64,000 bases of DNA from a virus (IMGVR_UViG_3300027917_000033:23843-87842); one strand, 5' to 3'; counted from the first letter of the stretch, positions 6,635 to 29,335 are shown. Notes: generated by a model from the letters alone, not told the origin. Numbers and translations: made by a program.

Positions 6635-6649
6635 TTTCTCAGCATCCTA

Positions 6650-6660: not shown

Positions 6661-6686
6661 ATATAGATAAGGTATAGGAGGAAAGA

Positions 6687-7686: not shown

Positions 7687-7696
7687 TTTACACACG

Positions 7697-7990
7697 ATGA
7701 GAATAGCTTTTGACAAATACAAAGCTTTGCTAACTAAAGAACTAGACCCCAATAGCCCAGAATTAACCGGGCAGCCAGCAGAGCCAACACTAGGCCTGCC
7801 ATCACAACCAGCTAGAAGTGGTGTACAGGACACCCCGCTTAAAACGCGCCACAGGAAATATTTCGGCGCATATACAAATCAACCAGCCACTGATAAGATT
7901 GGGTACCCAGATCAGGTGTGGAGCAACATCAAATCATTAAGCCCTAGCAGCAAGAAAATCAGACCATACAACGTCAACAGCCATCATTGA
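7697..7990 (+). CDS. hypothetical Pro-rich protein
   Basis: 97 residues. N-terminal helix then a Pro/Gln/Ser-rich, probably disordered segment and a basic Tyr-containing tail. Its end overlaps the convergent zinc-finger gene by 7 bases. Not recognised; the call as a gene rests on tight packing behind 7369-7686. Confidence 0.5.
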   Translation: MRIAFDKYKALLTKELDPNSPELTGQPAEPTLGLPSQPARSGVQDTPLKTRHRKYFGAYTNQPATDKIGYPDQVWSNIKSLSPSSKKIRPYNVNSHH

Positions 7991-8748
7991 CGTTCAAAAA
8001 TACCGCCACCATTACACTTTGGGCATGTTTGCTTTGGGTCTGTGCGAGCCTTGCCGCTGCCGCCGCATGCAGGGCAATCATTGATATTGTATCCACTTTT
8101 GCCGAAATGGTGAGAGTTGTCATTGGCCTTCGATGCTGCTGCCATAGATTCAAACCTTCTCTGTAGTTCGCGATTTCCAGTCTTAACAATTCTTATGTCG
8201 GTATTTCCGCCTTCGTTGTCAAATATCCTCTTTGGTAGCGGAATTGGTCCTCTGGTTGATGTCTCGACTACTTGATTCTCTTTGGCAGTAGTTTGTATTT
8301 TGCAATATGCGAGATCCTTTTGGCTGTATCCTGAGTGGCTTTCGACGCCGCTTGGCGGTTGTGTTGTTGGCTCTACTGGTGTGGGGCTCTCTGCTATCGG
8401 CTCAGCAATTGGCTGCTTTGTTTGCCTGTTTTTCTGGGGCACCAGCTTATGTGGTTTTGTGCTTATTGGTGCTGGTTTATGAACTGGTGGTTGCTTGCTT
8501 ATAACTGGTATATTGTTGATATCAACCCCAAGCTCAGCAGCAAGTTCCTGGAGCTGTTTCATTTTCTGCTGTCGCTTCTGTTCTTCAAGCCTATTCTTAC
8601 TATCTCTTTCGAGTTGCTGTCTGATAGACTTTGGGGTCTGGTCTTCGCAATTCTCACACAAAGCTACAGTATGTGGTTGTCCATCAACTTTAACGGTCAG
8701 GGTAGTATTTAAATTGACAGAACCACAAAACAAACATTTACCGGCCAT
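7984..8748 (-). CDS. protein with N-terminal zinc knuckle and C-terminal DnaJ-type zinc finger
   Basis: 254 residues. CLFCG and CENC (about 5-8 and 31-34) form one zinc site; a charged coiled coil and a long Pro/Gln/Thr linker follow; the C-terminus has CPACGGSGKA and CPKCNGGG, the repeat of DnaJ cysteine-rich domains. No J domain is present, so it is not a DnaJ. Possible scaffold or nucleic-acid binding role. GGAGG stands before the ATG and overlaps, on the other strand, the SD of the divergent gene at 8760. Confidence 0.65.
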   Translation of the reverse strand: MAGKCLFCGSVNLNTTLTVKVDGQPHTVALCENCEDQTPKSIRQQLERDSKNRLEEQKRQQKMKQLQELAAELGVDINNIPVISKQPPVHKPAPISTKPHKLVPQKNRQTKQPIAEPIAESPTPVEPTTQPPSGVESHSGYSQKDLAYCKIQTTAKENQVVETSTRGPIPLPKRIFDNEGGNTDIRIVKTGNRELQRRFESMAAASKANDNSHHFGKSGYNINDCPACGGSGKARTDPKQTCPKCNGGGIFERQ

Positions 8749-8759
8749 GGAGACCTCCG

Positions 8760-9161
8760 ATGGAAGATAAGATAGAAATCATCGAACTTGGATTGGACGA
8801 AGATCTTAAGAAGGATATTGAGGATTCGGCTAAATTGTCAGACGACATACAAATTAAATTGAAAAACCAAGTACAAGGTATGACCAAACAAATGATAAAT
8901 AAGAAAGCCCAAGAAAAGAAAAAATGGGAAGGAAAGTTAGATATTATATATGAAATTCTGTTAGAATCATACGAACGTGATCCACAGAAGCATGTTCCCA
9001 AAACTACCATAATAGAAGCCATATCGTGTAGTGACAAAGAACTATCAAGTACGATCTTGCGGTTTAAGCGTTATTTAAGAACCACCAAGGAAGACAAGTG
9101 GACATTGATGCGTAAAAAGGTTAGGGGCATAACTAGTTACGCACTTGCTCCCTTTGCCTAA
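8760..9161 (+). CDS. hypothetical helical protein
   Basis: 133 residues, highly charged and helical. The C-terminal part (YERDPQKHVPKTTIIEAI ... LRFKRYLRTT) reads like a winged helix-turn-helix, but no family was recognised. It starts 11 bases from the divergent gene at 8748, and its last 29 bases overlap the end of the uracil-DNA glycosylase gene. Confidence 0.55.
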   Translation: MEDKIEIIELGLDEDLKKDIEDSAKLSDDIQIKLKNQVQGMTKQMINKKAQEKKKWEGKLDIIYEILLESYERDPQKHVPKTTIIEAISCSDKELSSTILRFKRYLRTTKEDKWTLMRKKVRGITSYALAPFA

Positions 9162-9858
9162 GCCCAACAATCAATCTGCACAGCAAGCTAACCTGTCTAC
9201 TAAAAGCCTCTTTTCTAACTTTGTCGGCTAAATTTCTAGGAGATGGATGATATATTGCAAATATTTTCTTGCCAGCCAATTCTGAGTGAGTTAGCTTCCC
9301 AAGGGCTTTTGCGTATATTGCGTCCGGGCAGAAATGGTTGAATGAAATAGCTCCAAGCGTAATCAAAAAATCTGGGTTTAATATGGCAAGTTCCATTTGC
9401 AAGAACGGGTGGCATTTCTGGATACTATCATACTCTGGCTTAGCATTATTTTCTGTATAGCATTTGCAAATGTTGGTTATGTAAAAATCCTTCCGTTCTA
9501 AACCATTCTTTTCTATTTCTCTGTTGAAATTTATGCCAGCTTGCCCCACGAATGGTTCATCCTGATGGCACTCATTGACTCCTGGATTTTGCCCGACTAT
9601 CATATACTTACTAGGTGTCATAGTGCTAAATACATGCTGGTCATACCCGTAGTGTTTTCTGCCGAGATGGCACATGATGCAATCTTTACAAGTGTCTCTT
9701 AGCGATCTCAGCATTGTTATTCTGTCGTCGTTCACTGGTTTCCAATCGAAGTGTCTGATCTCCCTAACAATTCTATCTTCTTCACTGTTGTACACTAAAT
9801 AATTTCCGAATCGAAGTGGCAATATCATAAAAATAATCCCATCTAGCATTACTACCAA
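9133..9858 (-). CDS. uracil-DNA glycosylase, family 4/5-like
   Basis: 241 residues at most. Diagnostic blocks: VGQNPG followed by EPFVGQAG (water-activating and uracil-binding loops), NICKC, LGAIS and the closing HPSPRN. Cysteines in TCKDCIMC, NICKC and KCHPF fit the four ligands of the Fe-S cluster of family 4 enzymes. It removes uracil from DNA and starts base excision repair. The real start is uncertain: the longest frame overlaps the flavoprotein gene by 77 bases, and a start at about 9714 would remove the overlap but trim the N-terminus. Confidence 0.85.
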   Translation of the reverse strand: MVVMLDGIIFMILPLRFGNYLVYNSEEDRIVREIRHFDWKPVNDDRITMLRSLRDTCKDCIMCHLGRKHYGYDQHVFSTMTPSKYMIVGQNPGVNECHQDEPFVGQAGINFNREIEKNGLERKDFYITNICKCYTENNAKPEYDSIQKCHPFLQMELAILNPDFLITLGAISFNHFCPDAIYAKALGKLTHSELAGKKIFAIYHPSPRNLADKVRKEAFSRQVSLLCRLIVGLRQREQVRN

Positions 9859-11198: not shown

Positions 11199-11632
11199 CC
11201 CCCTTTCTTATCGCGGTTTTGTCTAGATTCAAGAAGGTGCTTCTTCCATTTTTCGCCACATTCGAAACACATATTGAAGTCCATATGCTTGGGAATTACT
11301 TCAGATGGTCCCTCTTCTTTTTTGTTTTTATCTACTACCACCTTGGTTACAATTAATTGGTAGTACGTGAAAGACGCTCCCTTGCTGTACTTCGGGCACG
11401 AATCACATTTTATCTGTAAAGGGGTGATAGGGCCAAGGTTTTCAATACACTTATTCTTGATGTTAGCAAAGCATGATTCACATATATCACATGAATCAAT
11501 CATTTTGGGCGGCGATGAAAACCCACCGTTAACTGAAATTTCTACTCTGTCGAACGAATAATACGTGAAATCATTTCTATATGCCGACGTACAGATATCA
11601 CACTCTATACCATCCTTTGATTTAAGAAGCAT
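11189..11632 (-). CDS. cysteine-rich protein with repeated zinc sites
   Basis: 147 residues with CDIC, CDICESC, CDSC and CFEC. The two halves look like internal repeats: FTYYSFDRVEISVNGG and FTYYQLIVTKVVVDKN follow a Cys pair in each. Probably two zinc-stabilised domains arisen by duplication. Directly follows the polymerase C-half with an 11-base overlap, so it may be a polymerase accessory. Confidence 0.6.
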   Translation of the reverse strand: MLLKSKDGIECDICTSAYRNDFTYYSFDRVEISVNGGFSSPPKMIDSCDICESCFANIKNKCIENLGPITPLQIKCDSCPKYSKGASFTYYQLIVTKVVVDKNKKEEGPSEVIPKHMDFNMCFECGEKWKKHLLESRQNRDKKGGWS

Positions 11633-13985
11633 CTTTCATCTCCAGTGGAAGGATAATCGACCCAGGCCTTATGTTGAAACTAGAGTATTCTTCCTTCCAT
11701 GCAACCCTGATTCGTATTCCGACTCCTTCCTGAAACAAAGATGGGTCATTAATTGACAATTCGCTATTCCAGACCATGATTTTGGCCAGTTCTACACCAT
11801 CAGTCACCATCATTTGCATGAATTCACCACTAGCGCCTCTGCGCATTTCTAAACTTTCTATTACAGCTTCCAGTATTCCATGTGTTTTGGCGTCTGTTAC
11901 AGTGTGGCCTTCGCAATTGTAGGCATCAAGCGGCGAGTTCCAATAATACCCAAGATACTGTTTCTCAAACGCGAGTTTTTCGGTAAACTTGTAATCGTCA
12001 TATAGTTCTTCTATCTTAGTTAATGTTGGGTTTGGTTTTGGTTTCCAATTTTCTATGCTCTTAGGCACCTTTTTTCTGTTTGGGTATTGCACAAGATACT
12101 CAGCTTTTCTACGCTGTCGTTCCTTTATTATATCAGATTCTTGCCATGCAAGTTTTTCGTTGACTTCTTTCTTGATTTCCTTGTGTTCTTGGCCGGAAGT
12201 AGTATATTTGTAAAGGTACCAATGCCACAAAGCTCGCCGGTTTGGGCATATTTCGTTAAATGCGCCTAGCTTTATTAATCTCTCAAAAACTGTTTTATTC
12301 TTACCCGCTTGGACTATGAACTCATCTATTGAATCTGTGCTTCTTTCGCCAGCTATTTTCTGGGCAGCTTTGATACCTATACCTTTTATGCTTTCAAGCC
12401 CAGGCGTAACCATGTCTCCGTCAACAGAGAAAGTCGGCCCAAGCTTGCGAAAATTAATAGCACCAAACTTAACACCTTCGGCTCTGGCTATACCCATATA
12501 TCTAACTAATTTGTCGTGTTTACAATTAGACATCACCGCAGCCCACCATTCTGCTGGGTAATGTGATTTGAGCCACAAACACCTGTACGAAATAATTACG
12601 TAGGCTATCGCATGGCTAAGGTTGAAACAATACCTAGCAAATGATTCGATTTTGCTCCACCATTCAATTGCCTTTGCGCCCCCTATTGTCTTGGTTGCGC
12701 CATCTATTACTTTGTCTTTAACCTTGGCAAGCTTGTCGGCCCACTTTTTGGCAACGGCTTTGCGTGCTGCTTCAGCTTCTGGGATTGAGAATCCACATAT
12801 GTCGGTGAAGAATCTACTTAATTGTTCTTGGAACACTATAATATTGTATGTGTCTTTTAATATCGCTGTAATCCTTGGGTCCTCGTCGTCCTTCCATGAT
12901 TGGCTGCTTGAATCTCTGCGTTTGATATATTCATCAACTAGAGGCAATGGCCCTGGTCTGCCAAGAGACGTATAAATCACCAGATCATTAAAGTTTTTAA
13001 CACCGCCCTTTTGCAGAATGCTCTTGGCGAGGTCTGTCTCAAACTGAAAAATTGTTTCTACTCGTTTCTGGTCAGCCATTTTGATGGCCAGTGGATCACT
13101 AAACCTTATCGGTTCTCGTTTCCCATCGGCAAATACTTCCCATCCAGCTCGATCTTCTTCCGGGTCCATATTATCCCAATCTATGACCACCCCCCTATTG
13201 CCTTCAATTAATTTCTTGCAGTTCCAAATGTGTAACAAATTGGTTAGGCCAAGTATATCGAATTTGACGAATCCAAATTTTGATAGCTGCGTGCTCCTGC
13301 CTTCTGTCCATGAAGAGGTCCATTGGCCGCCGCTTATTGTCAATGGAATATGGTCTTTGACAGGAACACTAGAGATAATCAGCCCACCAGCATGCCTACC
13401 CTGCGTTTTGATAAGTTTCACAAGTTTGTACGCCAGTGAGACTACGTTCTGGTTTCTGTCGGCATAATCTTTAAATGCCGGATAAGCATCCGCTGCCTCA
13501 TCATAATCCATGTCATCAAACTCATCCGGGAGTGTCTTTGTAAGCTTTTGTATTTCGTCTATGTCTATCCCAAGAGTCCTGCATGTGTCGATTAATGCTA
13601 ACTTTGGCTTGTACGTCTGCCATAAGCCGACACTGCACACCTTATCGACTCCGTATGTATCGGCAGCATACTTCTTAATGTGGTCTCTAGCGATTGGGAG
13701 GAAATCAGAATCAATATCTGGATAATCAGGATGATATTGAATGTTTGGTTTTATGCCAGCTTCTACCGGATCGATATCGGTCAGGCCAAGTAGATGCAGC
13801 AAAACAAGACCGTTTGGATTGTCGTCGAGTTTCTCATTCTTTTCATATAATTCAACCCAGTAATCGGCCATTCCTTGCAATTCTATCTGTTCAAACTCGT
13901 ATGATAGGCGTTTAGAATATGGCTTTGTGTCCGGTTTCTTAGTTAATGCAACGAGTGCAATCTTTTTGAGCTCATTCCAAGTCAT
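11622..13985 (-). CDS. DNA polymerase III alpha (DnaE-type), C-terminal half of a split enzyme
   Basis: 787 residues. The catalytic PDIDSDF (89-95) carries two of the three palm aspartates; the third is in FVKFDILGL. Finger residues (GRHAGGLIIS), the tandem helix-hairpin-helix (IKGIGIKAAQKIAG) and an OB-like C-terminal region follow. The PHP domain and the Gly-Ser loop are missing and are encoded separately at 15100-16476. Before PDIDSDF the protein has its own version of the stretch that ends the N-half (LVLLHLLGLTDIDPVEAG), so the two halves overlap by about 30 residues of homologous sequence. No intein motifs are seen at the ends, so the parts probably assemble non-covalently. Confidence 0.9.
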   Translation of the reverse strand: MTWNELKKIALVALTKKPDTKPYSKRLSYEFEQIELQGMADYWVELYEKNEKLDDNPNGLVLLHLLGLTDIDPVEAGIKPNIQYHPDYPDIDSDFLPIARDHIKKYAADTYGVDKVCSVGLWQTYKPKLALIDTCRTLGIDIDEIQKLTKTLPDEFDDMDYDEAADAYPAFKDYADRNQNVVSLAYKLVKLIKTQGRHAGGLIISSVPVKDHIPLTISGGQWTSSWTEGRSTQLSKFGFVKFDILGLTNLLHIWNCKKLIEGNRGVVIDWDNMDPEEDRAGWEVFADGKREPIRFSDPLAIKMADQKRVETIFQFETDLAKSILQKGGVKNFNDLVIYTSLGRPGPLPLVDEYIKRRDSSSQSWKDDEDPRITAILKDTYNIIVFQEQLSRFFTDICGFSIPEAEAARKAVAKKWADKLAKVKDKVIDGATKTIGGAKAIEWWSKIESFARYCFNLSHAIAYVIISYRCLWLKSHYPAEWWAAVMSNCKHDKLVRYMGIARAEGVKFGAINFRKLGPTFSVDGDMVTPGLESIKGIGIKAAQKIAGERSTDSIDEFIVQAGKNKTVFERLIKLGAFNEICPNRRALWHWYLYKYTTSGQEHKEIKKEVNEKLAWQESDIIKERQRRKAEYLVQYPNRKKVPKSIENWKPKPNPTLTKIEELYDDYKFTEKLAFEKQYLGYYWNSPLDAYNCEGHTVTDAKTHGILEAVIESLEMRRGASGEFMQMMVTDGVELAKIMVWNSELSINDPSLFQEGVGIRIRVAWKEEYSSFNIRPGSIILPLEMKDAS

Positions 13986-14356
13986 TCTTCCCTACATAAT
14001 TGTCTAGCCTCGTCGCTTTTATCAAATACCACCTGTATATCTTTATCAATAATCAGATCTCTTATTTCTTCAACTAGCTCTCTGTTGGATTTCGGCGTAA
14101 GGTCCCATGTAATTTCCTTTCCGTCTGTTTTATATTTCGTCATATTTGCTACATATTGGTTCGGCGTAGTTACTGTGACGTTCTCAATCTTGACACCCAT
14201 TGCGGCAAATTTCATAGCTAATAGTTCAACACTATTAACTGTTGCGTTATCTCCGCCATCATACACAAATGTCTTCTTTTTGTCCTTGTCTTTAACGATC
14301 ACACAGAACTTAGTACCGTATTTGCCACTGACGATACCAGCCGTTTCAATCTTCAT
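13982..14356 (-). CDS. RNase HI-like fold protein, active site probably incompl­ete
   Basis: 124 residues. FVYDGGDNATVNSVELLAMKFA recalls the RNase H block with the catalytic Glu in NSVELLAM, and the C-terminus (VVFDKSDEARQLCREE) the last E-x-x-D-x-x-A helix. The usual D-S-x-Y in the middle reads TPNQYVAN, lacking the Asp, so cleavage activity is doubtful. It may be a nucleic-acid-binding remnant. It sits between the two polymerase halves with 4-base overlaps on both sides. Confidence 0.45.
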   Translation of the reverse strand: MKIETAGIVSGKYGTKFCVIVKDKDKKKTFVYDGGDNATVNSVELLAMKFAAMGVKIENVTVTTPNQYVANMTKYKTDGKEITWDLTPKSNRELVEEIRDLIIDKDIQVVFDKSDEARQLCREE

Positions 14357-14769
14357 GAAAGCATCTCCAAGTGTGGTATCCCAACAGACTTTGCTAATCT
14401 TTTGGCCGTTTTTAATGATGATTTGTGCCAGTCCAGAATGGCATCAACGTCGCCTTTGTCTACATCTGGCATAGTTTTCCCAATTGTCGATATTTCTTCG
14501 GGCCTAAGATTCAATATTTCGCAGAATCCAAACACTAGTGCGCGTAACGTGTGTATGATCATGGCACCAACGTCTTCGACAATTCTTGACTCGTCTCCAT
14601 TTTCATATGCTGCTGCAATCAATGATTCAACAACATCCGGCCATTTAAACATTGAATGTACAGCTATGAATTGGGTTCTACCAGCGCCTACAATCGATAT
14701 ATAGGCTGCTTCTAATTGCTTGGTTTTATTGATTAACTCTTTTAACTGATTTAATTTCGTTGGCGTCAT
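14353..14769 (-). CDS. hypothetical protein between the DNA polymerase halves
   Basis: 138 residues, helical, with the segment TLRALVFGFCEILNLRPEEI. Not recognised. Overlaps the RNase H-like gene by 4 bases and the next gene by 44. Its place inside the split dnaE locus suggests that it was inserted there or came with the splitting event. Confidence 0.55.
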   Translation of the reverse strand: MTPTKLNQLKELINKTKQLEAAYISIVGAGRTQFIAVHSMFKWPDVVESLIAAAYENGDESRIVEDVGAMIIHTLRALVFGFCEILNLRPEEISTIGKTMPDVDKGDVDAILDWHKSSLKTAKRLAKSVGIPHLEMLS

Positions 14770-15103
14770 ATATGTCTAACTTTAATTCTCCTTCGGCTAT
14801 TCTTATGCCCGATTCAGTACCTTGTATCAGTAGGTGATTGTAAGGTAAGATATTCAAAGCTATTCTCTTATTCGATGGTATCCGCCACACCCTACCTATT
14901 TTGTTATCATAAATATTTACAATTGTGGATATCATTTCCTTTAGTTTCGATATGTTGTCCAACCTGGCAAAAAACCTCAATTCGTTTGTGAAGTTTTTGT
15001 GCGTTGTATTCAAATAGCAATCATCACTGTTTCCAGTCGGATCTATCATTATACTAATAGCGCAGAACCCTCTCGACCTTAGTAACTCTATTGCATCGAT
15101 CAT
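14726..15103 (-). CDS. hypothetical protein between the DNA polymerase halves
   Basis: 125 residues, alpha/beta. The order helix, strands, helix (IDAIELLRSRGF ... LRFFARLDNISKLKEMISTI) loosely recalls the small paralogous family of the tRNA region, but the D-P-x-x-F signature is absent, so I do not place it there. Overlaps the N-half of the polymerase by 4 bases. Confidence 0.55.
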   Translation of the reverse strand: MIDAIELLRSRGFCAISIMIDPTGNSDDCYLNTTHKNFTNELRFFARLDNISKLKEMISTIVNIYDNKIGRVWRIPSNKRIALNILPYNHLLIQGTESGIRIAEGELKLDIYDANEIKSVKRVNQ

Positions 15104-16476
15104 TCTGCTTTTACATTCAACAGATAACCACCCCTGCTTGGTGACAAAAACCTATTAAACGACAGCTTCCATTTTAGTGGATTGAGGCTATGAATTCCTA
15201 GCAGATAACATAGCAGTGAGCCGCCCGCTGATCCTCGCGCTGGGCCAACGTCCCATCCATTATCTCTTGAATATTGTACTAAATCCATCATTATCAGGAA
15301 GTATGATGCAAAACCTTTTGATATTATTCTCTTAAGCTCCTTTTCTACCTGTTGTTTGTGAGTTACCATTTCGCCGTCCATATGGTATTTAGTCTCGTCG
15401 TTGAATAAATTGTGCTTTTTTAGTCTGTCAAATGCAAGCAATGTCAGTTTTCTGTCGGCATCTGGTATAGACGGCAATTTTGGCGATAGGTCCGGATCGA
15501 ATCCGTCGCACTTATCTGCTGCGATAATTGTATTGTCACATATCTCTTCGAATTTGTCGATTGTTACACCATTGCTGTAGCCTTCATCATAAAATGTGGT
15601 CCTTAAGTCCGCTCTCGTCTTAAAGAACTGTTCATCCGAATTGACTATAAATAATTCCGGGTTATCCATCGTGGTGTTCTGGTCTATTGCCATCATGCAT
15701 TTTTGAACTTCGAAGTCCTCTCTCTTGATGTAGTGACTATCGTTGGTCAACACACCCTTTATCCTGAATTTATCAGACCAGCCAGCACACATCGCGAACG
15801 CCTCTATAGATCCTTCTAGGTCTTTGCCTGGCATTTGCATTTCAATGTACAAGTCATCTCCGAATATTTCATACATTTTGTGCAACCAATCTTTGGCGAT
15901 GTCCAAATACCTCTTGGCCGCCGATCTGTTTTTTTCTTTCATGGCCAAGTATGCTAACCTGATTTCGTGGCATAGCGGGCCGTTTAGGCAGCCAGTTAAT
16001 ACAAGCAAGCCTTCCCTATGCTTGTCCAGTCTATCGAGCCAAACCCTTGGTTTGTAATAGAATCCTATATCCCACGCAGTTGATGTCATATGAATTAGGT
16101 TACGATACCCAACTTTGTTTTTGGCCAGTACTGTCAAATGTCTTTGCCTCCTCAAGCGTTCATATCTCTCAGGGTCAACCAGCTTCAAGGAGGCCCATTT
16201 TTGTCCACTAGCCTGGAATTCTTTTAATTCATTGTGATAATCATTGTAGTACACTTCGCAACCTGCGATGAATTTCACCTTATGCTTTTTGGCGGCAAAA
16301 TATGCGTCTGGAAATGATGCTAGACTACCATGGTCTGTGATTGCTACGGCTGGCATTCCAAGTTCAACGCATCTTTCCATATAATCGTTTGGTGATGCTA
16401 TTCCGTCCAATGGTGAAAATATTGAATGGGTGTGTAGATGGACGAAATTAGTTGGACCTGGATATTTATCTGCCAT
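15100..16476 (-). CDS. DNA polymerase III alpha (DnaE-type), N-terminal half with PHP domain
   Basis: 458 residues from ATG 16476. The PHP domain is intact by eye: HLHTHSIFS, ITDHGS, AGCEVYY, LTGCLNGPL and NDSHY, the metal ligands that give some DnaE proteins proofreading activity. Near the end lies the Gly-Ser loop VGPARGSAGGS, which in DnaE binds the incoming nucleotide region, then LSFNRFLSPSRGG and a short unrelated end. In one-piece DnaE the sequence P-D-F-D-V-D-F follows at this point; here it is in the other gene, 1.1 kb downstream. Both halves are needed for a complete active site. Confidence 0.9.
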   Translation of the reverse strand: MADKYPGPTNFVHLHTHSIFSPLDGIASPNDYMERCVELGMPAVAITDHGSLASFPDAYFAAKKHKVKFIAGCEVYYNDYHNELKEFQASGQKWASLKLVDPERYERLRRQRHLTVLAKNKVGYRNLIHMTSTAWDIGFYYKPRVWLDRLDKHREGLLVLTGCLNGPLCHEIRLAYLAMKEKNRSAAKRYLDIAKDWLHKMYEIFGDDLYIEMQMPGKDLEGSIEAFAMCAGWSDKFRIKGVLTNDSHYIKREDFEVQKCMMAIDQNTTMDNPELFIVNSDEQFFKTRADLRTTFYDEGYSNGVTIDKFEEICDNTIIAADKCDGFDPDLSPKLPSIPDADRKLTLLAFDRLKKHNLFNDETKYHMDGEMVTHKQQVEKELKRIISKGFASYFLIMMDLVQYSRDNGWDVGPARGSAGGSLLCYLLGIHSLNPLKWKLSFNRFLSPSRGGYLLNVKAE

Positions 16477-16768
16477 CTGGCTCGACGTCACTGACTCTTC
16501 TTAGTCTTTTCCTAGCGGCTAGCAATTTATTTTTTATCTCGTGGAGCAAGTCGTAACGCCCATCAGAATCGTCACTTTCACACAATTCAATGACTTCGCC
16601 AATCATTTCAATTGCATTCTGGACGAGGACGACAACTGCCTGTTTCTTTTTGAACACCTCAGCAGTCTTTAATTTTGGATCGCCAATTATTTTTAGGAAT
16701 ATCTGGCGTTTTGCAAATTTTGCTTCAGTAGCAAGCTCTTCCATGTCCATATTCACCACATCCTCCAT
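16466..16768 (-). CDS. hypothetical helical protein
   Basis: 100 residues, strongly helical and charged (FKKKQAVVVLVQNAIEMIGEVIEL), Arg/Lys-rich near the end. Overlaps the start of the polymerase N-half. First gene of the minus-strand polymerase operon after the hairpin at 16796-16830. Not recognised. Confidence 0.55.
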   Translation of the reverse strand: MEDVVNMDMEELATEAKFAKRQIFLKIIGDPKLKTAEVFKKKQAVVVLVQNAIEMIGEVIELCESDDSDGRYDLLHEIKNKLLAARKRLRRVSDVEPDGR

Positions 16769-20545: not shown

Positions 20546-21034
20546 ATGAAACTAAAATCATTGTATGAATCTGAGTCTGATGAATCTCGCATAAAACGAC
20601 TTCGGGATTCTGTAACAATACCATCATCTAAAAATATTTATAATGACATGATCGGAGTGTCGGAAAGACTGGCGATAGTTGGGCAATATTTAAGTGATTG
20701 GGGCTTTCCAGTTGACCCAGTAAGTAAACCATCAACTGGTCATCCCCCATTCATACGGGTATGGAATAATGAACACAAAACCGGTGTCGTTGCAATATCT
20801 GTTAGAGCATTGGTATCGGGTTATAAAGTATTTGGGATTCCTACAATTGGCCCATCTGAAGTGTTTATAGAAAAACTTGGTAGCAATATGCGAAGAAAGT
20901 CAGCGAATCTGTGGGCCAAAAAAGTCGATTTGGCTAAACCTAATGCACTGCAAACAATAAAACAAATAGTCGAAGAAATGGTTTTTCTGCCAAACCAAAG
21001 ACGTGATCATTTAGTGGACCCAGATGAATCCTGA
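20546..21034 (+). CDS. probable internal head protein, DPxxF family, LYE leader
   Basis: 162 residues. The N-terminus MKLKSLYE-SESDES has an L-x-E site at residues 6-8, the shape of T4-type capsid-targeting sequences. The body matches the small paralogous family: hydrophobic strands, then LAKPNALQTIKQIVEEM, the D-P-x-x-F position reading K-P-N-A-L. First gene of the plus-strand cassette; it overlaps the next gene by 11 bases. Function unknown. Confidence 0.65.
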   Translation: MKLKSLYESESDESRIKRLRDSVTIPSSKNIYNDMIGVSERLAIVGQYLSDWGFPVDPVSKPSTGHPPFIRVWNNEHKTGVVAISVRALVSGYKVFGIPTIGPSEVFIEKLGSNMRRKSANLWAKKVDLAKPNALQTIKQIVEEMVFLPNQRRDHLVDPDES

Positions 21035-21548
21035 AGAAATAGCCAAGTTGATCACGGAAGATCCCGACGTCTTCGAAGACTGGGATGAAGCTGATATAGG
21101 ATTGGTGGAAACGATGAATCCAGAGGATATAGCCAAGTTGATCACGGAAGATCCGGACACTCCGGACATTCTGGATCTCGTAAGTCAAAAATTATTCGAA
21201 TTAGGCTATAGCCACGAGAACAGGTGGGGCGGATTATTGATTCGCCCTGAGCAGCTGAACATCGAAGGCGTAGAAGACTGCGAAGGGCTTTATATCGAAG
21301 ATAAAGGCCAAGCCAACATTAACATGATCATGATAGACAAGAACGCGCCTGAGGCTTTCGGTCCTGGAGACTTCACGCCATGGTGGTCGGGGACCTTCCT
21401 GAAGAACATCTGGCGTCGACCAACAGGTTACTTTGACTATTGGTATCCATTGAATTTGGCTGATCCCGAAGAATATGAAGAATTTGAAGAAATTCTTAAA
21501 TGGTCGATGGAAGATTGGAGAGGCTATTGGAGACTGGGTCAACTGTGA
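21024..21548 (+). CDS. probable internal head protein with tandem duplicated ITEDPD leader
   Basis: 174 residues. The leader occurs twice: MNPEEIAKLITEDPD at 1-15 and MNPEDIAKLITEDPD at 32-46, so either a duplicated targeting signal or an alternative start. The rest is a DPxxF-family domain ending LADPEEYEEFEEILKWS. If the prohead protease cuts after L-I-T-E, both leader copies would be removed. Ends in a GTGA overlap with the next gene. Confidence 0.75.
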   Translation: MNPEEIAKLITEDPDVFEDWDEADIGLVETMNPEDIAKLITEDPDTPDILDLVSQKLFELGYSHENRWGGLLIRPEQLNIEGVEDCEGLYIEDKGQANINMIMIDKNAPEAFGPGDFTPWWSGTFLKNIWRRPTGYFDYWYPLNLADPEEYEEFEEILKWSMEDWRGYWRLGQL

Positions 21549-22387
21549 ACCCTAAAGATATAGCCCGGATGATTACTGAAGACCCGGATATGACGGAAGA
21601 TATAGACGACCTGACAATATTGGGGTGGTTCAAAGAATATCTTGAAAATAGCCCGATTATTGCGAAGGCTTTTGAACACGGTCGCTTTGGCAAGTTCATC
21701 AGGTACGATTTTGAAAACTTTGGGCCTGTCCAGAGCAAACCGTGGGTGCGTCTCAATATAACGACATCTGCACACAGTGGCGCTGTAATTGTACACAATG
21801 GCAAACTTGAATTATTTAATTATTTCATGCCAAAAACGCGCATCGTAGACTTGGCTGATCCGAACGCATTTGAACGTGCTACAGAGATTATAGTAGAGCT
21901 ATTGTTCGCTGGTCCTGCTCGTCGGGCTTTCCAGACAGAGGAAATGAATCGCCCTGACCCAGAAAATACAATCAGGTTGGTCGAAGAAGACCCGAACGCT
22001 AAGTCTATAGAAGAAATAGCGAGTGAGGTGCGTTTAAAGGCAAGCCAACTAGGGATTGATCTTCCACCGACATCGGTCATGTGGACAGATAAAGACACTA
22101 GTCATTATGATTTTAAAGATATCTATATAAGCCAAAGGGATGCTGATGATGCATTTGCGATTGTGGCGCACGAATATGGACACGTTTTGTATGATATGCT
22201 GTCAAAAGAACAGCAAGACATGTGGTTTGAGTTGGTGAATAAAGAAGTCTTCAATGGCAAATTATATCCTGCCCATGGTGACGAAGTTTTTGCTAGAAGT
22301 TTCCAACACGTGATCGCAAATGAGTCAGAACCAGCTTATGAAGCTGCTAGAGATGCATTTTTTAAAATAATGTCATATGAATCCTAA
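21545..22387 (+). CDS. probable internal head protein: DPxxF domain fused to zinc metallopeptidase
   Basis: 280 residues from GTG 21545 (the GTGA overlap with the upstream stop decides the start). Leader NPKDIARMITEDPDM at 2-16; DPxxF domain to about 125 (VDLADPNAFERATEIIVE); then a second leader-like stretch NTIRLVEEDPN (141-151); then a zincin with HEYGH (209-213) and a candidate third ligand in HGDEVFARSF (Glu247). The zincin family cleaves proteins with one zinc ion. An injected protease could act on a host factor or in the head. No signal peptide. Confidence 0.75.
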   Translation: MNPKDIARMITEDPDMTEDIDDLTILGWFKEYLENSPIIAKAFEHGRFGKFIRYDFENFGPVQSKPWVRLNITTSAHSGAVIVHNGKLELFNYFMPKTRIVDLADPNAFERATEIIVELLFAGPARRAFQTEEMNRPDPENTIRLVEEDPNAKSIEEIASEVRLKASQLGIDLPPTSVMWTDKDTSHYDFKDIYISQRDADDAFAIVAHEYGHVLYDMLSKEQQDMWFELVNKEVFNGKLYPAHGDEVFARSFQHVIANESEPAYEAARDAFFKIMSYES

Positions 22388-23111
22388 AGACATAGCTCGG
22401 CTGATCACTGAAGATCCTGATATCTTTAACGAAGACTGGGAAGAATTAGGCATCGAAGATCCATTTGCTATTGATGAAGACGAAATTAAAAAGAAATGGA
22501 CTGCGGCATTAATGGATGCGATGGGCCAAGAATGGGCGTCAATACTAAATGAGAATGATAAGGAGCAGATCCTTGCTGATCAAGATAAGTTCGTAGAGAT
22601 ATTAAAATATGCTAAGGAGGTGGCAGAGAAAAGATACCCGCAGTATACTGTAGACGAGTATTTGCGTAATGCCGCCATATCTGTGGTGGCTTTCCAGGTG
22701 AACATGAGAACGCCCAAGAAGGCTCCTCCAGAAACTCCGCCAGAGACGAAGTATACGGTTTTCCTCTCAGACCCAGAAATGATGCTGGAATTAACCACCA
22801 ACCCGCAAAACTGGAAGAATTACATAGCGATTATCAAAAGAGAGCTAGGAGACGGTCCTTATTATTGGCAGCAATTTGATTCTGATACTGGAATGTTATA
22901 CAATGGACTTTATGCTTACCCAGTGCCAGACGAGCACGTGCTGGAATATTATGACGTATGGTGGATGTATGTAAATATTATCGAAAAAATAACAGACCCT
23001 GAAGAGATTGCCAATACCATACCAGCAATGGGCGACTATAACCTAGGTGGCATCGTGGTATTCAAAAACATGAATGATTTGCTTACTAGGTGGGAGCCAC
23101 TTAGTTTATAA
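22377..23111 (+). CDS. probable internal head protein with ITEDPD leader
   Basis: 244 residues. Leader MNPKDIARLITEDPDIF, helical acidic domain (WTAALMDAMGQEW), a Pro/Glu hinge (KKAPPETPPETKY ~113-125) and a second alpha/beta domain. No known fold recognised. Start codon lies 11 bases inside the upstream gene. A true intrinsic terminator follows, so transcription from the cassette head ends or is reduced here. Confidence 0.7.
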   Translation: MNPKDIARLITEDPDIFNEDWEELGIEDPFAIDEDEIKKKWTAALMDAMGQEWASILNENDKEQILADQDKFVEILKYAKEVAEKRYPQYTVDEYLRNAAISVVAFQVNMRTPKKAPPETPPETKYTVFLSDPEMMLELTTNPQNWKNYIAIIKRELGDGPYYWQQFDSDTGMLYNGLYAYPVPDEHVLEYYDVWWMYVNIIEKITDPEEIANTIPAMGDYNLGGIVVFKNMNDLLTRWEPLSL

Positions 23112-23135
23112 AGGCCGGGTTATCTGGCCTTTTTA
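23111..23135 (+). terminator. intrinsic terminator
   Basis: AAAGGCC (23111-23117) pairs with GGCCTTT (23127-23133) around a 9-base loop and runs into five Ts on the plus strand. It divides the leader cassette into two transcription segments. Confidence 0.8.
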
Positions 23136-23144
23136 TGAGAGAAT

Positions 23145-23870
23145 ATGGAACCGATAGACATAGCTCGGCTGATTACGGAAGACCCGGATATTGCAGCCGA
23201 TTTCTTTCATGGATACAGATCGTATGGCGACAGAACCAATATGTTGAGGATTTTGGAAAATGGCATAGCCGTCCCAGATACTATGGAAACATATTGGAGT
23301 TGGGATCCTATTCTTTATTATTGGTATAACAAAGACGCAACGCCGGGATATAAGAAAGGGAGACTTGTTGGTAATATCGTAGAGGTAAGGTTCACAGAAA
23401 ATGATCCGAACGTGGGTGGTTTTGGGGATGGCCAGCCTCTATATGCGTATATGGTGGCTAGAGACAAAGAGTGGGTTGACAAACATCATATGGCTAAAGC
23501 GGAAAATCTACTAGACGAATTACCACCTGCAATGAAAAAATCATTCCTAGACCTGCAGCAGCAAATTACAGGAGATCCAAAATGGCGTGGTGATTGGATG
23601 TTTGCTGGCATTTTGCCTGACTACCACAAACAGGCAGCTGTTGATTGGTTTAGAGATGCAAGACGATACTTGTCGGCAGTTGGTACGGCATCTAGTCATG
23701 AATTTAATTATGTTGGCCCTATCATTTCGTTTGGTGACCCAAATAATACTTCAATAGTTGGTATTTACGAATTATACAAAGATACCGGAGAAATCTACAA
23801 GGCATATTATACTTGTGGATTGTCGAAAATCGGATCGGACCTTTTCGCGTCACACAGAAAAACAACATGA
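23145..23870 (+). CDS. probable internal head protein with ITEDPD leader; possibly ADP-ribosyltransferase-like
   Basis: 241 residues. Leader MEPIDIARLITEDPDI. It is followed at once by FFHGYRSYGDRTNMLRILENGI, an H-G ... I-L-x-x-G-I pattern seen at the start of ADP-ribosyltransferase and related folds; the T4 Alt enzyme, also injected, is of that class. The remaining motifs are not clear, so the enzyme call is a guess. Ends in an ATGA overlap with a one-helix membrane protein. Confidence 0.65.
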   Translation: MEPIDIARLITEDPDIAADFFHGYRSYGDRTNMLRILENGIAVPDTMETYWSWDPILYYWYNKDATPGYKKGRLVGNIVEVRFTENDPNVGGFGDGQPLYAYMVARDKEWVDKHHMAKAENLLDELPPAMKKSFLDLQQQITGDPKWRGDWMFAGILPDYHKQAAVDWFRDARRYLSAVGTASSHEFNYVGPIISFGDPNNTSIVGIYELYKDTGEIYKAYYTCGLSKIGSDLFASHRKTT

Positions 23871-23977
23871 AGAAGCCAATTGAAGTTAAGCCGCAGCCAA
23901 TTAGTTATGGCTGTGTAGGATTGGCTTTATTTGCACTGGCGGTTATCATCACAATTGTTATTGGGATTTATCTATGA
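23867..23977 (+). CDS. small single-helix membrane protein
   Basis: 36 residues: a basic, Pro-containing N-terminus (MKKPIEVKPQPISYG) and one hydrophobic helix (LALFALAVIITIVIGIYL). It is joined to both neighbours by ATGA overlaps (starts 23867, ends 23977), which supports it as a real gene. It lacks the leader, so it stands out in the cassette. Could be an inner-membrane partner of an injected protein. Confidence 0.6.
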   Translation: MKKPIEVKPQPISYGCVGLALFALAVIITIVIGIYL

Positions 23978-24405
23978 ATACAAAAGACATAGCCATGTTA
24001 ATCACTGAGGATCCAGATGTGGCCGAATCGCTAAGAATACTCATTTTAGATGATGATCCACATCCTGATGACCCAGACAACTTTTCAAAAGCTGGCCAAT
24101 TCAGAATTAAGGCATTCAAGAAGAAGTTTATCGGGCATGTTGTTAAATGGGTTAGAACCGCTGAACAGGCTATAGATGAACTAGCAAACAACGACTGGGA
24201 TGTGTTGTTCCTGGATCACGATCTTGGTGGCGAAATATATGTAGATTCTGGGCCTGGTACAGGTTACGAAGTGGCCGTGTGGCTTGAGAAAAACCCAGAC
24301 AGACAGCCACCGCAGATATTCTTACACAGCCTAAATTCTGTTGGTAGGCAAAATATGCAAGCGGCCTTACCAAATGCAACGCAAACGCCGTTCGCGTGGA
24401 AATAG
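23974..24405 (+). CDS. probable internal head protein: leader plus receiver-like (cREC) domain
   Basis: 143 residues. Leader MNTKDIAMLITEDPDV, then a receiver-like fold: LRILILDDDPHP, WDVLFLDHDLGG, GTGYEVAVWL and PQIFLHSLNSVGRQNM. The D-H-D-L-G-G block and the H-S-x-N strand match the cyclic-phosphate-processing receiver family, proposed to act on RNA ends; ordinary response regulators lack them. An injected RNA-end processing protein is the inference. Confidence 0.7.
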   Translation: MNTKDIAMLITEDPDVAESLRILILDDDPHPDDPDNFSKAGQFRIKAFKKKFIGHVVKWVRTAEQAIDELANNDWDVLFLDHDLGGEIYVDSGPGTGYEVAVWLEKNPDRQPPQIFLHSLNSVGRQNMQAALPNATQTPFAWK

Positions 24406-24442
24406 AGGCAAAGATAATTTATGAATACATTGTGTGCGAAAC

Positions 24443-24850
24443 ATGAATGATATTAAGAAAATAGCAGGCCTGATCACTGAAGATCCTGATGTGATACAGG
24501 AAACCGGTTTATCAGATTTGTATGAACAAGAAGCAGAATTATTAAAAGCATTATGGGGATACCTTGAGGAAGAAGGGATCCAAATGGAGGCCGGGTCTCA
24601 TCTAACTCGTGGTGTGCCAAAAGGTATGACCAGGCATCCTGAAACTGGGCCGCAATTGTGGAGAAGATCTCCAAATGGTAGGATTGATATCTGGAAAACA
24701 CCAGGGCGACTGGCAAAGAGTGACCACGATTACACTGCATCTTACGATGCCGGGTGGTCATCTAAAGGGCGTTTATATTTTAGATTCAATGTATGTGACC
24801 CGGAATCGTTCCCAAAGGTTAGGGATTTCATTTTAAAGCATACAACATGA
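24443..24850 (+). CDS. probable internal head protein, DPxxF family, ITEDPD leader
   Basis: 135 residues from ATG 24443. Leader KKIAGLITEDPDVIQET; body with charged strands and the C-terminal signature CDPESFPKVRDFILKH of the DPxxF family. The leader DNA is identical over 25 bases to that of the next gene (CACTGAAGATCCTGATGTGA and beyond), which points to recent copying. Ends in an ATGA overlap. Confidence 0.7.
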   Translation: MNDIKKIAGLITEDPDVIQETGLSDLYEQEAELLKALWGYLEEEGIQMEAGSHLTRGVPKGMTRHPETGPQLWRRSPNGRIDIWKTPGRLAKSDHDYTASYDAGWSSKGRLYFRFNVCDPESFPKVRDFILKHTT

Positions 24851-25206
24851 AACCAGAAGACATAGCGAAAAGAATCACTGAAGATCCTGATGTGATACAG
24901 GGAATGCCAGATTTGGTTGTGCCATACACCCTGTTTGACGATGATGATTATGAAGTTGCGGTGTCTGTCGGTGGCGATTTAGACGATACAATGCTCCAGG
25001 ACATACTGTTTGCCAAAGAAAAACGTACTGGCAGACTATTGGATGGTGACGAATTTGCCAGTTTGAACGCTGCTGAGGGCATAGATTATATAGGACAACT
25101 TGAAGATCGGATTAACGAATATTATGCAGATGCTGGGATGATAGACGACGTCGATGCTTATAAACGCACTAAGGAAGACGAATTACTTGGAAGACACGGA
25201 TATTGA
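24847..25206 (+). CDS. probable internal head protein with ITEDPD leader
   Basis: 119 residues. Leader MKPEDIAKRITEDPDVIQ, followed by an acidic protein (LFDDDDYEVAVSVGGDLDD). No DPxxF signature and no known domain recognised. Start overlaps the upstream stop (ATGA); end overlaps the next gene (TTGA). Confidence 0.7.
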   Translation: MKPEDIAKRITEDPDVIQGMPDLVVPYTLFDDDDYEVAVSVGGDLDDTMLQDILFAKEKRTGRLLDGDEFASLNAAEGIDYIGQLEDRINEYYADAGMIDDVDAYKRTKEDELLGRHGY

Positions 25207-25583
25207 AATTGCCGGTGTTATATGAAGAAATAGACAAGGCTAGTTATGATGTAGCAGAACTGCTCGTAAAATTTTTGCAAGATGTTAAACTTCCTGGCAA
25301 CCCTGAAATAGACAGCCACTCTCCCCCGTGGCGGGCTGGCCGATCGAGTGCTGCTGCTGTAATTACAGTTAGAGCACGTATTGCATGGCGTTTTCAATTT
25401 CAAGCACTTGCTAGAATAATTGTGTATGATGATGGAACGATTGACCTGGCAACTGGATTGTGTAAAAAGGGCGATATGGTACCAAGGATTGGCGCGAGTC
25501 ATTGGCAATATAATTATTATGACCCAAAATCATTTGGGAACATAGAGAGACGTCTTAAAGAGTTGTTCGGTAAATATTTTTAA
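25203..25583 (+). CDS. probable internal head protein, DPxxF family, LYE leader
   Basis: 126 residues, probable TTG start at 25203 overlapping the previous stop. N-terminus KLPVLYEEID has an L-Y-E site at the same place as the first gene of the cassette. Body with beta strands rich in Arg and the end YYDPKSFGNIERRLKELF, a clear DPxxF signature. Last gene before the double hairpin. Confidence 0.65.
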   Translation: MKLPVLYEEIDKASYDVAELLVKFLQDVKLPGNPEIDSHSPPWRAGRSSAAAVITVRARIAWRFQFQALARIIVYDDGTIDLATGLCKKGDMVPRIGASHWQYNYYDPKSFGNIERRLKELFGKYF

Positions 25584-25590
25584 TATAGCA

Positions 25591-25648
25591 GGGGCGAAGC
25601 TCACGAAGCTTCGCCCCCTGGTGTTGATCTCCGACGATCAACACCTTT
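25591..25648 (+). terminator. two consecutive 10-bp hairpins
   Basis: 25591-25600 pairs with 25608-25617, and 25620-25629 pairs with 25636-25645, both without mismatch; TTT follows. The tandem arrangement right after the last cassette gene suggests a strong, possibly bidirectional terminator. Confidence 0.7.
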
Positions 25649-25673
25649 AGCACCCCGTTTTAATTTTGATGTT

Positions 25674-25886
25674 ATGATATTATGGGTACTGATGGATCCG
25701 AAGAATATGTCTCCGGTACTTCCGGGCTCAACTTGGATATATCGCGGTCTGATGATCTTTGTTGTCGAAAGTTATGCAATAGATGACGAATGGATCATTA
25801 CTGCGGTAACTAGGGATGGAGATTCGATGGTTATTTCTACAAATATAGAGAAATGGCTTGAAGATGCCGATTATCTGGAGACATAA
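25674..25886 (+). CDS. hypothetical small protein
   Basis: 70 residues (64 if the ATG at 25692 is used). Beta-rich SH3-like pattern: PGSTWIYRGLMIFVVESYAI ... DEWIITAVTRDGDSMV. Ends one base before the ferritin-like gene, so it is likely co-transcribed with it. Not recognised. Confidence 0.5.
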   Translation: MILWVLMDPKNMSPVLPGSTWIYRGLMIFVVESYAIDDEWIITAVTRDGDSMVISTNIEKWLEDADYLET

Positions 25887-25887
25887 G

Positions 25888-26241
25888 ATGGTTGACTTTG
25901 TGCATCCGTTCCCAGGCAAGAAACCAGGTGACAAAATCACGAAGCAAGAGCTGATTAGTGCTCTTCGCCTGTCACTATGTGCTGAAGAAGAAGCAACTCA
26001 TCTTTACGACACAATAGCCGAATATACAGATGACGAAAGAGTCAAAAAAGTCATGAAGGATGTGGCCAATGAAGAACAGGTACACGTTGGCGAATTCCAA
26101 AAATTATTAGATCTCATGGAAGATGACGAAGAGGAGAAAGTAGGGGAGGGTAAGAAAGAAGCCGAAGAGAAAATAGAATCTATACAGAAACAGATAGCAG
26201 ATTTTATCACAGAGGACCCGGATTGGTCCGTTAGTAAATAA
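25888..26241 (+). CDS. ferritin/rubrerythrin-like protein with C-terminal ITEDPD tag
   Basis: 117 residues. Two helices carry ferritin-type Glu/His pairs (AEEEATHLYD ~32-41, NEEQVHVGEFQKL ~61-73). Small ferritin-like proteins are common in phages. After an acidic coil comes IADFITEDPDWSVSK: the cassette tag, at 107-112, at the C-terminus instead of the N-terminus. This is the only member so arranged. It suggests that the tag can act as a docking signal at either end, much as C-terminal cargo peptides direct ferritin-like proteins into encapsulins, which share the phage capsid fold. Confidence 0.7.
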   Translation: MVDFVHPFPGKKPGDKITKQELISALRLSLCAEEEATHLYDTIAEYTDDERVKKVMKDVANEEQVHVGEFQKLLDLMEDDEEEKVGEGKKEAEEKIESIQKQIADFITEDPDWSVSK

Positions 26242-26842: not shown

Positions 26843-28982
26843 AATTCCGTCACCACCAAGATTGCCTACATATGGTATGACAGATGGCGACCAGGTAATG
26901 GATGGTAATGGAAATATTTATGAATACAATGCTGAGAAAAACGAATGGATTTATCGAGGGCAGATAGAAGTCCCCGCACAGGTATCGTACGAAAATGATG
27001 GTGTGATATATCCGGAAGTATATCGAAGATTGGCTTTAATCCAGGAACTATTAGATCGTGGCATAGACTTTGGGCTATTTAAACTTGATACACCTGGCAG
27101 GATTCCATATTACTACTACTTTTATTCGTCTGACGATTTGATCAGGTTTTACCCACAATCGAACAGCAGGCTTGGTATTGAAATTGATCGCCCCAGGTTG
27201 TATCAGAAACTGCTGAGAAACTGCTGTGTCGGTCCTAAGGGTGAGACTGGAGCAAAAGGCACAACTGGTCGTGCTGGGATACCGGCAGCCGATGAAGAAT
27301 TTAAATCACCGACGACCGTTACGTCTGGTAGTTTCGAATTTTCTACGACAGTTAATACACCAATAGACACTGATATTTCTATTAGGTTGTTCAGGGGCAA
27401 CACGGTCCTTGTTGAATACCTGGTCTCAATTGCCAGTAGCTCTGACATCATCACTGCTGGAGGGGCTCAAAATTTAACAGATATTGAGAAGCAAGCGGCA
27501 GAATTAGAATTTGAAGCGAGAGGTAAAGTTGAAGAAGGCAAAATTGAAGACGCTATCGATAAGTATCAACAAATTGTTGGTTTGGGGGTTGGTGTAGAAC
27601 GCGTACAACTGATAATCGATTCTCTACAAGAGACGAACCAAGTGCCAGATGAGCAGATACCATTGACTATCATTATTTATGATGATGACATAAATGTAGA
27701 CATAACGAACACTGAAATTAATTTTGATCCTGACAATAACAGATTGTGGGGGATGCTATCGTTTACAGCTGGCGACGGTGATATCGCTAGCTGGCAGTAT
27801 AAGGCAAGACAGAGAGGACCAAAGGGGTCAGCTGGCAGTGATGGGTCGGCCTTTCTTGAAGTTACCTCTCAGACGATAGGCGATTCATCAGTCACTAGTG
27901 GTTCTGCGGTAGTGTCGGTCAGGAAATCTGATTTAACAAATAACATAGTATATCTATCAAGCGATTTACCAACGGATGTATGTGTTAGTAATCTGGCACT
28001 AAGTGCGAGCACTTTGCCAATCGGAGACATTCTGTCATCAAAATATGTTTCGGCCAAAGTGACTACTAGGCGTTGTAAAGACATTGGATCATATGAATAT
28101 AAGCAGCCTGAATACAGCACACCACCATTAGAACTACCTGCATGGGAGCCAACACCAGATTGTGTTTCGGCAGCTAGGTATAGTTCTTACAAATTTGAAT
28201 GGTGGGACTCGACAGATCCTAAGTATCCATTTAGGATAGTAACTCCGCCGAGGCCAAATGACCAATGTTGTCAAGAACCGTTCTTCTGGTGTCCAAATGT
28301 AGGAGATAACCCCTGTGGCGTCAACCATTGGAGGTGTGGTGGTCTTGAGAAACTTCCAAGTGGTGCTGCAAATGCGCAGGGCCTGTCCTGTGATGGGACT
28401 GCTATGGAGCCAATCATAAAAGCTCCACAACCACACCCACCTGATTGTGATTGCGACTGTGACAGCCCTATTGCTTTTGAATTGCAAGATGGTGGTTTGT
28501 TAATAGGGACTGTTATTCTGGGGCCAACTGGCGAAGACAGCCATTCGCTCGTCGAATATAGTGTAATAGATGGTAGAACTGACACCTACAAAATCAATTT
28601 TAAATCGTCTGGATCAATGCAGGCGACTATTAGTTTAGATTGGAAGCCGGAAATTTGTGGGGGTAAAGATAAAGAAGAAAAGAATTGTCAATTTATTGAA
28701 GAATGTGAAGTTCATACTACGGTGGTGTTTGAAGACAATAATCAGAATGCAGAAATAGATGGTGGAGGTGCTTCTGAAATCACGACTCTTCCTGGCTATG
28801 CTACATTTAATATTACACCATTGTCAGGGACTGAAGTCGATGTGAACATGAGCATCATGGTTAATGATACTAGATCGCAGTGCTGCAGAGGCTATTCGAT
28901 CAGGATTGGCGGTAGTTATACAGGAACGCCAGTTCAGAGTACTGGTGATGTTCAAATTGTTGATATGAACTGGACACCATGA
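26835..28982 (+). CDS. large structural/adhesin-like protein with collagen-like segments
   Basis: 715 residues. An N-terminal small domain (DGDQVMDGNGNIYEYNAEK), a Tyr-rich stretch, short collagen-like G-x-y runs (GPKGETGAKGTTGRAG ~135-150 and RGPKGSAGSDGSA ~330-342), an acidic helical repeat, a cysteine-rich central part (CCQEPFFWCPNVGDNPCG) and a beta-sandwich C-terminus. Likely a virion surface or fibre protein. The many cysteines are unusual for a phage fibre and could bind metal. Overlaps the next start (ATGA). Confidence 0.6.
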   Translation: MVEIPSPPRLPTYGMTDGDQVMDGNGNIYEYNAEKNEWIYRGQIEVPAQVSYENDGVIYPEVYRRLALIQELLDRGIDFGLFKLDTPGRIPYYYYFYSSDDLIRFYPQSNSRLGIEIDRPRLYQKLLRNCCVGPKGETGAKGTTGRAGIPAADEEFKSPTTVTSGSFEFSTTVNTPIDTDISIRLFRGNTVLVEYLVSIASSSDIITAGGAQNLTDIEKQAAELEFEARGKVEEGKIEDAIDKYQQIVGLGVGVERVQLIIDSLQETNQVPDEQIPLTIIIYDDDINVDITNTEINFDPDNNRLWGMLSFTAGDGDIASWQYKARQRGPKGSAGSDGSAFLEVTSQTIGDSSVTSGSAVVSVRKSDLTNNIVYLSSDLPTDVCVSNLALSASTLPIGDILSSKYVSAKVTTRRCKDIGSYEYKQPEYSTPPLELPAWEPTPDCVSAARYSSYKFEWWDSTDPKYPFRIVTPPRPNDQCCQEPFFWCPNVGDNPCGVNHWRCGGLEKLPSGAANAQGLSCDGTAMEPIIKAPQPHPPDCDCDCDSPIAFELQDGGLLIGTVILGPTGEDSHSLVEYSVIDGRTDTYKINFKSSGSMQATISLDWKPEICGGKDKEEKNCQFIEECEVHTTVVFEDNNQNAEIDGGGASEITTLPGYATFNITPLSGTEVDVNMSIMVNDTRSQCCRGYSIRIGGSYTGTPVQSTGDVQIVDMNWTP

Positions 28983-29335
28983 GACTGTGCGACCTACATG
29001 AAGCAGCCGATAAAATGGCTGCTATAAAGAGAAAAGTTAGAAAAAGAATAATGAAGGGCGATAGTAGGCTCAAGAAGTTATTAAAATCCACAAATTATAG
29101 TATTGACAATGTGATTTACGCAATCAAGAAGGGTGAATGTATGAGCAACCCGGCTTCCGATGCGAAAGCATTGGGACCAACTTATTTAGAGCAAACCATC
29201 TCTAATATCTTACGTGACATGCTTCAAGATAGAGAATTCCCAATCATGAAGCTAAACAGCATCAGGAAATACTTTGGGTTAGTTAGATTGAACCACAAGG
29301 AATTAAGACTTATATCCTATAAAACTTCTGTTTAA
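28979..29335 (+). CDS. basic protein with L-H-E leader, possible internal head protein
   Basis: 118 residues. The start MRLCDLHEAADK matches the common phage capsid-targeting pattern with L-x-E followed by Ala, the preferred T4-type cleavage context. The next 30 residues are very basic (KRKVRKRIMKGDSRLKKLL), as in DNA-associated head proteins. No further domain recognised. Confidence 0.55.
   Translation: MRLCDLHEAADKMAAIKRKVRKRIMKGDSRLKKLLKSTNYSIDNVIYAIKKGECMSNPASDAKALGPTYLEQTISNILRDMLQDREFPIMKLNSIRKYFGLVRLNHKELRLISYKTSV

Follow-up and report, generated by a model that had tools for sequence, protein, structure and literature searches.

The 64,000-nucleotide stretch of DNA analysed here comes from an uncultivated large phage (the window; positions 23843-87842 of the 87.8-kb record IMGVR_UViG_3300027917_000033, the parent record or G000). 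It carries a cassette of neighbouring genes whose products begin with one of two short leaders, and we consider it likely that both leaders serve a T4-type head as capsid-targeting propeptides, their cargo being cut after an (L/I)xE motif, kept in the head and delivered to the host. The class B leader spans 15 residues with the consensus MNPKDIAxLITEDPD (general form xIAxLITEDPD), and the class A leader reads MKLxxL(Y/H/F/I)E (wider spacing form M-K/R-L/I-x-x-L/I-x-E). A first-pass annotation of the DNA had proposed seven class B genes with starts at 21024, 21545, 22377, 23145, 23974, 24443 and 24847; all seven are real open reading frames (ORFs) with these starts, and their leaders are MNPEEIAKLITEDPD, VNPKDIARMITEDPD, MNPKDIARLITEDPD, MEPIDIARLITEDPD, MNTKDIAMLITEDPD, MNDIKKIAGLITEDPD and MKPEDIAKRITEDPD. 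Three additional genes in which it had noted an LxE start (20546, 25203 and 28979) are indeed class A. Like T4-type capsid-targeting sequences (CTSs), the leaders are short (~10-20 residues), N-terminal and common to otherwise different proteins, and they end in the gp21-type motif (L/I)xE, as LITE in class B and L(Y/H)E in class A.

By analogy with T4, the leaders would bind the prohead scaffolding core during assembly, drawing the attached bodies inside, and a prohead protease of the S77 family would then cut after the Glu of (L/I)xE. In class B this cut may fall after LITE (LITE↓D; the arrow marks a putative cut), after a second (L/I/F)xE motif seven residues downstream, or at both places. 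The mature bodies would remain inside the head beside the DNA and pass into the host when infection begins.

Enrichment and spacing of the leaders

The pentapeptide ITEDP occurs nine times in the parent record, with eight of the nine inside the first 60 ORF residues, compared with 0.035 per shuffled proteome, the ninth forming the C-terminus of a ferritin-like protein that ends at 26241. Copies of the class B leader in this record differ by synonymous codons for the residues that they have in common, which indicates a conserved protein rather than recent copying of DNA. The class A sequence MKLxxL(Y/H/F)E opens 12 ORFs against 0.04 expected from shuffling, most of these genes lying upstream of the window (parent record 1222-9439), and its spacing is specific, with 12 cases of M-K/R-L/I-x-x-L/I-x-E against at most 2 at any other spacing.

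Both leaders extend to related phages. The class A DNA pattern is present in all 20 related records examined, with 113 matches against 8 for the reversed pattern, and a mis-spaced pattern used as control gave 10 against 4 reversed. Because 12 of these 20 records were picked solely by capsid-gene similarity, the presence of class A in the clade does not arise from how the records were selected. The class B counts for the relatives do come from records that had been picked for that motif; class B-like matches are found in 3 of the 12 records picked by capsid gene. The first-pass annotation had called for a search for the leader across phage genomes. A strict class B pattern identified 33 stretches in viral contigs, nearly all of them N-terminal, and a slightly stricter form had no match among 84,980 prokaryotic genomes. 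A 20-residue leader query gave no match among cultured phages, the query being too short for this to mean much, and in PubMed Central full text no paper was found naming ITEDPD in the capsid-leader sense. Occurrences of the T4 late promoter TATAAATA are at chance level.

Non-redundant candidates from all loci number 53 for class B, one of which is itself a capsid protein, and 47 for class A. When class B leaders are aligned on the Glu, Ile occupies position -6 in 43 of 52 and Ala position -5 in 48 of 52, both residues lying outside the selection pattern, and a second (L/I/F/M/V)xE motif is placed exactly +7 from the first Glu in 17 of 52 (at most 8 at the best offset in shuffles). In several relatives a separate motif, Y-x-(G/D)LEDADEF, comes after leaders of either class and is at times repeated (loci L012, L020, L033, L048, L056 and L058).

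A T4-type head in related phages

Peptidase_S77, the family of the T4 gp21 prohead protease, is present in 7 of 17 leader-bearing records, and the head module of the relatives runs in the order terminase, T4 portal (E 8e-67), a protein of ~1000 residues, protease, scaffold-like protein and Gp23 capsid protein (E 1.4e-79). The same cut motif recurs in the propeptide of the clade's major capsid protein, where (L/I/V/M)xE is found within 16 residues ahead of the conserved body in 46 of 51 distinct N-termini, mostly as ITE or LTE, typical ends being RRPITE↓ETDLH or MTQTITE↓EFR. Capsid propeptides and class B leaders thus close with the same ITE. Scaffold proteins also contain many LxE motifs, with a background in such sequence too high for them to be used.

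Near-full-length reciprocal best hits of the parent record number 28 with the 395-kb relative G001 (median identity 43%), 25 with G004 and 50 with G002, placing the window phage, on sequence grounds, in a clade with a T4-type head. Since G001 has the head genes, we infer that the head module of the window phage lies in the missing part of its genome.

The capsid protein also appears in a different setting in these phages, namely small proteins in which a piece of 30-70 residues from the phage's own Gp23-type capsid protein is joined to an unrelated body (window 56760-57254, minus strand; G002 8580-9044; G001 123856-124347, 100745-101209 and 154349-154804). The pieces derive from three different regions of the capsid protein and are 50-74% identical to it; no piece of this kind from terminase, portal, protease or scaffold was found. 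Such fusions could interfere with the capsids of other phages or could represent another targeting route.

Leader exchange and cargo

Sequence comparison indicates that leaders are swapped between homologous bodies. Homologues of the body at 28979, which has a class A leader, include two proteins of G001, one class B and the other class B-like, and a class A protein of G017. Two 87%-identical proteins start differently (MKLRNIIESDED versus MKLRNIMISEDPDEVNPFDD). Similarly, a domain of ~100 residues with the signature YLxENGI...DPxSFxKI, for which an iterated hidden Markov model (HMM) identified 35 copies in 32 proteins, most of them in the parent record, occurs with a class A leader, with a class B leader (24443) or with none. 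Versions with two such domains have an (L/I)xE motif at the junction (LPIHE↓SQR, SLYE↓DHP). The first-pass annotation had described the leader-bearing bodies as unrelated, which holds only in part, because the products of 20546, 24443 and 25203 clearly have this domain in common and the N-terminal part of the 21545 protein weakly resembles it. Members of the domain family that were tested had no Pfam or PHROG match, viral-contig searches found no homologues of the 23145, 28979 and YLxENGI bodies, and an AlphaFold prediction for the YLxENGI domain from 8 sequences gave a low-confidence helix-strands-helix arrangement (pLDDT, the predicted local distance difference test score, of 53).

Recognisable cargoes include an S-adenosylmethionine (SAM) lyase (E 2e-11), two GNATs, an AAA_33 kinase (E 1.5e-13) and a C39 peptidase with an AstE-like domain (E 2e-15), together with KptA/DarT-like (E 7e-5) and PARP-like (E 6e-4) ADP-ribosyltransferase candidates, both below curated cut-offs; those in the window are a cREC receiver (E 3e-19) and a protein with weak M78 peptidase similarity. 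For any single recognised cargo a class A start could have arisen by chance. As judged from these similarities, the recognisable cargoes fit injected effectors. T4 Alt is an injected ADP-ribosyltransferase. Phages are known to use SAM-degrading enzymes against restriction (PMC7877911), and T4 IPI is an injected anti-restriction protein (PMC9026906).

The positions of some leader-bearing genes would also suit a different use of the same address. In G014 class B genes lie inside the head module, one of them, of 93 residues, between the ~1000-residue gene and the protease, roughly the position of T4 gp67/gp68, as well as just upstream of the terminase, and in G004 three consecutive class B genes lie directly downstream of the capsid gene. 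Many of the tagged bodies are, moreover, small and not recognised. The leaders might then address the prohead core with a cargo serving mainly head assembly or size, as do T4 gp67, gp68 and IPIII, rather than injected effectors. We regard this as unlikely, though the best placed of the alternatives, because the SAM lyase, GNAT, C39 peptidase, KptA/DarT-like protein and AAA_33 kinase have no obvious assembly role, and because the cargo varies widely among relatives, as it does among T4 internal proteins.

Weighing the capsid-targeting interpretation

Class B has conserved residues on both sides of the putative cut, DPD after it and IA before it, beyond what a protease site alone would need, and the further motif Y-x-GLEDADEF often stands behind the leader. 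These features would suit a signal with another role, such as a peptide that localises or docks proteins to a phage compartment or to a common partner protein, its likeness to a head-protein site being coincidental. Such a coincidence is improbable given that the capsid propeptides close with the same (I/L)TE, that the start of T4 Alt contains the identical LITE, and that the two leader classes have little in common except (L/I)xE and yet interchange on homologous bodies. Very improbable is a mere leftover, with no signal function, of a recently duplicated gene or of some selfish copying of N-termini, for although leader copies in G004 are near-identical across 22-31 residues and short capsid-gene pieces are fused to unrelated small proteins, the synonymous codon variation in the parent record, the conservation across divergent genomes, the precise spacing from the start and the second motif at +7 point to selection on the protein.

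Several observations count against capsid targeting. The parent record (87.8 kb, incomplete) has no detectable S77 protease, portal or full capsid gene; the prohead protease, which the first-pass annotation had looked for outside the window, is found in relatives. The class B leaders have an invariant Asp-Pro after the Glu, and the capsid sites are without a P2' Pro. By a loose count, only 27 of 44 protease N-termini have an (L/I/V/M)xE site, many YLxENGI proteins are without a leader, and in the ferritin-like protein the motif is at the opposite end and is not kept in a homologue. No published proteomics for members of the clade was found. We nonetheless favour capsid targeting, as the first-pass annotation had proposed, on the strength of the enrichment and N-terminal placement of the leaders, the S77 protease and Gp23 capsid protein in the relatives, the class B genes in or beside the head module of G014 and G004, the LITE at the start of T4 Alt, the (I/L)TE motif common to capsid propeptides and leaders, the swapping of leaders between homologous bodies and the effector-like cargoes. 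Read directly from sequence are the two leaders with their enrichment and spacing, the way in which bodies share and exchange them, the relatives' protease and capsid protein, and the capsid (I/L)TE.

More tentatively, and in our estimate somewhat short of an even chance, the data may reflect a general economy of cargo tags, in which two interchangeable head-loading tags are moved onto captured genes of any kind, including as tandem tags and as a C-terminal tag on the ferritin-like protein, for dozens of pre-made proteins carried into the host per phage, with class B a two-site signal new relative to T4.

Genes of the window

The cassette lies on the plus strand and opens with a class A gene (20546..21034; MKLKSLYE↓S) encoding a 162-residue protein with a YLxENGI...DPxSF domain body (iterated HMM E 7e-14). 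The next gene (21024..21548; 174 residues) has two class B leaders in tandem, at 21024 and 21114, and is followed by a class B gene with a GTG start (21545..22387; 280 residues), whose product has a C-terminal HEYGH motif with weak Peptidase_M78 similarity (E 0.019). In the protein encoded at 22377..23111 (244 residues, no recognised body) a second motif, DPDIFNE↓D, comes behind the class B leader, with WEELGIEDPF after it, a sequence also found in one G002 protein, there behind a class A leader. The class B protein at 23145..23870 (241 residues) likewise has no recognised body. It contains a stretch (FFHGYRS...NMLRILENGI) that by eye makes it a conjectural, unconfirmed ADP-ribosyltransferase-like candidate, and AlphaFold without homologues gave no usable model (pLDDT 38). 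Class B leaders also precede the cREC_REC receiver-domain protein (23974..24405; E 3e-19), a YLxENGI-domain protein (24443..24850; E 4.5e-7) and an acidic protein of 119 residues with no recognised body (24847..25206; MKPEDIAKRITEDPD). A class A YLxENGI-domain protein follows (25203..25583; MKLPVLYE↓E; E 1.9e-17), and further downstream are the ferritin-like protein of the rubrerythrin family (25888..26241; E 2e-7), which has the leader core at its C-terminus (IADFITEDPDWSVSK) and a 78%-identical homologue without the TEDPD tail, and the class A gene at 28979..29335 (MRLCDLHE↓A; 118-residue body), both on the plus strand.

Proteins with the longer signature YLxENGI...DPxSFxKIxxFI number ~27 in the parent record, mostly in one tandem array, with at most 4 copies in the relatives examined; YLxENGI-domain proteins map to 454-9439 of the parent record, upstream of the window, and to window positions 20546-25583 and 48953-63456. 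Elsewhere in the window, an adenylosuccinate synthetase-like protein (38482-39738, plus strand; E 5e-15) has the N-terminal loop DASAGSSGKGK, the usual loop of this enzyme being GDEGKGK, and could be a PurZ-like enzyme for 2-aminoadenine DNA. A DnaE-type DNA polymerase III alpha (11622-16491, minus strand) appears split over two genes, a PHP part (15100-16491) and a polymerase part (11622-13985), separated by two small genes. Nineteen tRNA genes are found among small minus-strand genes at 44019-63434.

Implications and comparison with known systems

If the capsid-targeting interpretation is correct, genome sequence and two short patterns would be enough to identify what uncultivated large phages inject as infection begins, information otherwise obtained only through virion proteomics of cultured phages. 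The ~100 candidates are mostly without assigned function, a few resembling anti-restriction or host-modifying enzymes, and the leaders would make up a natural collection of address tags with which proteins could be packed into phage heads.

The closest parallel is the CTS of T4 IPI, IPII, IPIII and Alt. T4 gp21 cuts after (L/I)xE, the CTS mechanism has been described (PMC9026906), and the first 10 N-terminal residues of IPIII are enough for packaging (PMC9026906, PMC3012670). The T4 record confirms the MELITE start of Alt that the first-pass annotation had given, and shows MKTYQEFIAE↓A for IPII/IPIII, FLTE↓A at residue 65 of gp23 and ELLRE for gp24. Relative to MKTYQEFIAE, class A has MK...(L/I)xE with two residues fewer, and class B has the LITE of Alt in the same place. 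Both systems have a short N-terminal propeptide ending in (L/I)xE on several different bodies, the protease, capsid and portal families are homologous in the relatives, and among the injected T4 proteins are an ADP-ribosyltransferase and an anti-restriction protein. Unlike T4, with its handful of such proteins, the phages described here have two leader classes in one genome, more than 20 tagged genes and a much wider cargo, a probable double cut motif with a conserved DPD, tandem and C-terminal copies, and exchange of leaders between homologous bodies, all known here from sequence alone. The ejection proteins of phiKZ and SPN3US also belong to large phages with many head proteins, which a gp21-related protease trims behind a Glu motif (PMC9026906, PMC5694885), but their propeptides are mostly long (several >100 residues) and the phiKZ motif is (S/A)xE, whereas the leaders here are T4-like at ~8-20 residues. 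In phage P1, ~30 N-terminal residues of DarB are enough to load a reporter into the head, and the cargo defends the incoming DNA (PMC9024508); few Dar proteins are involved, however, and no sequence common to DarB and the present leaders was shown.
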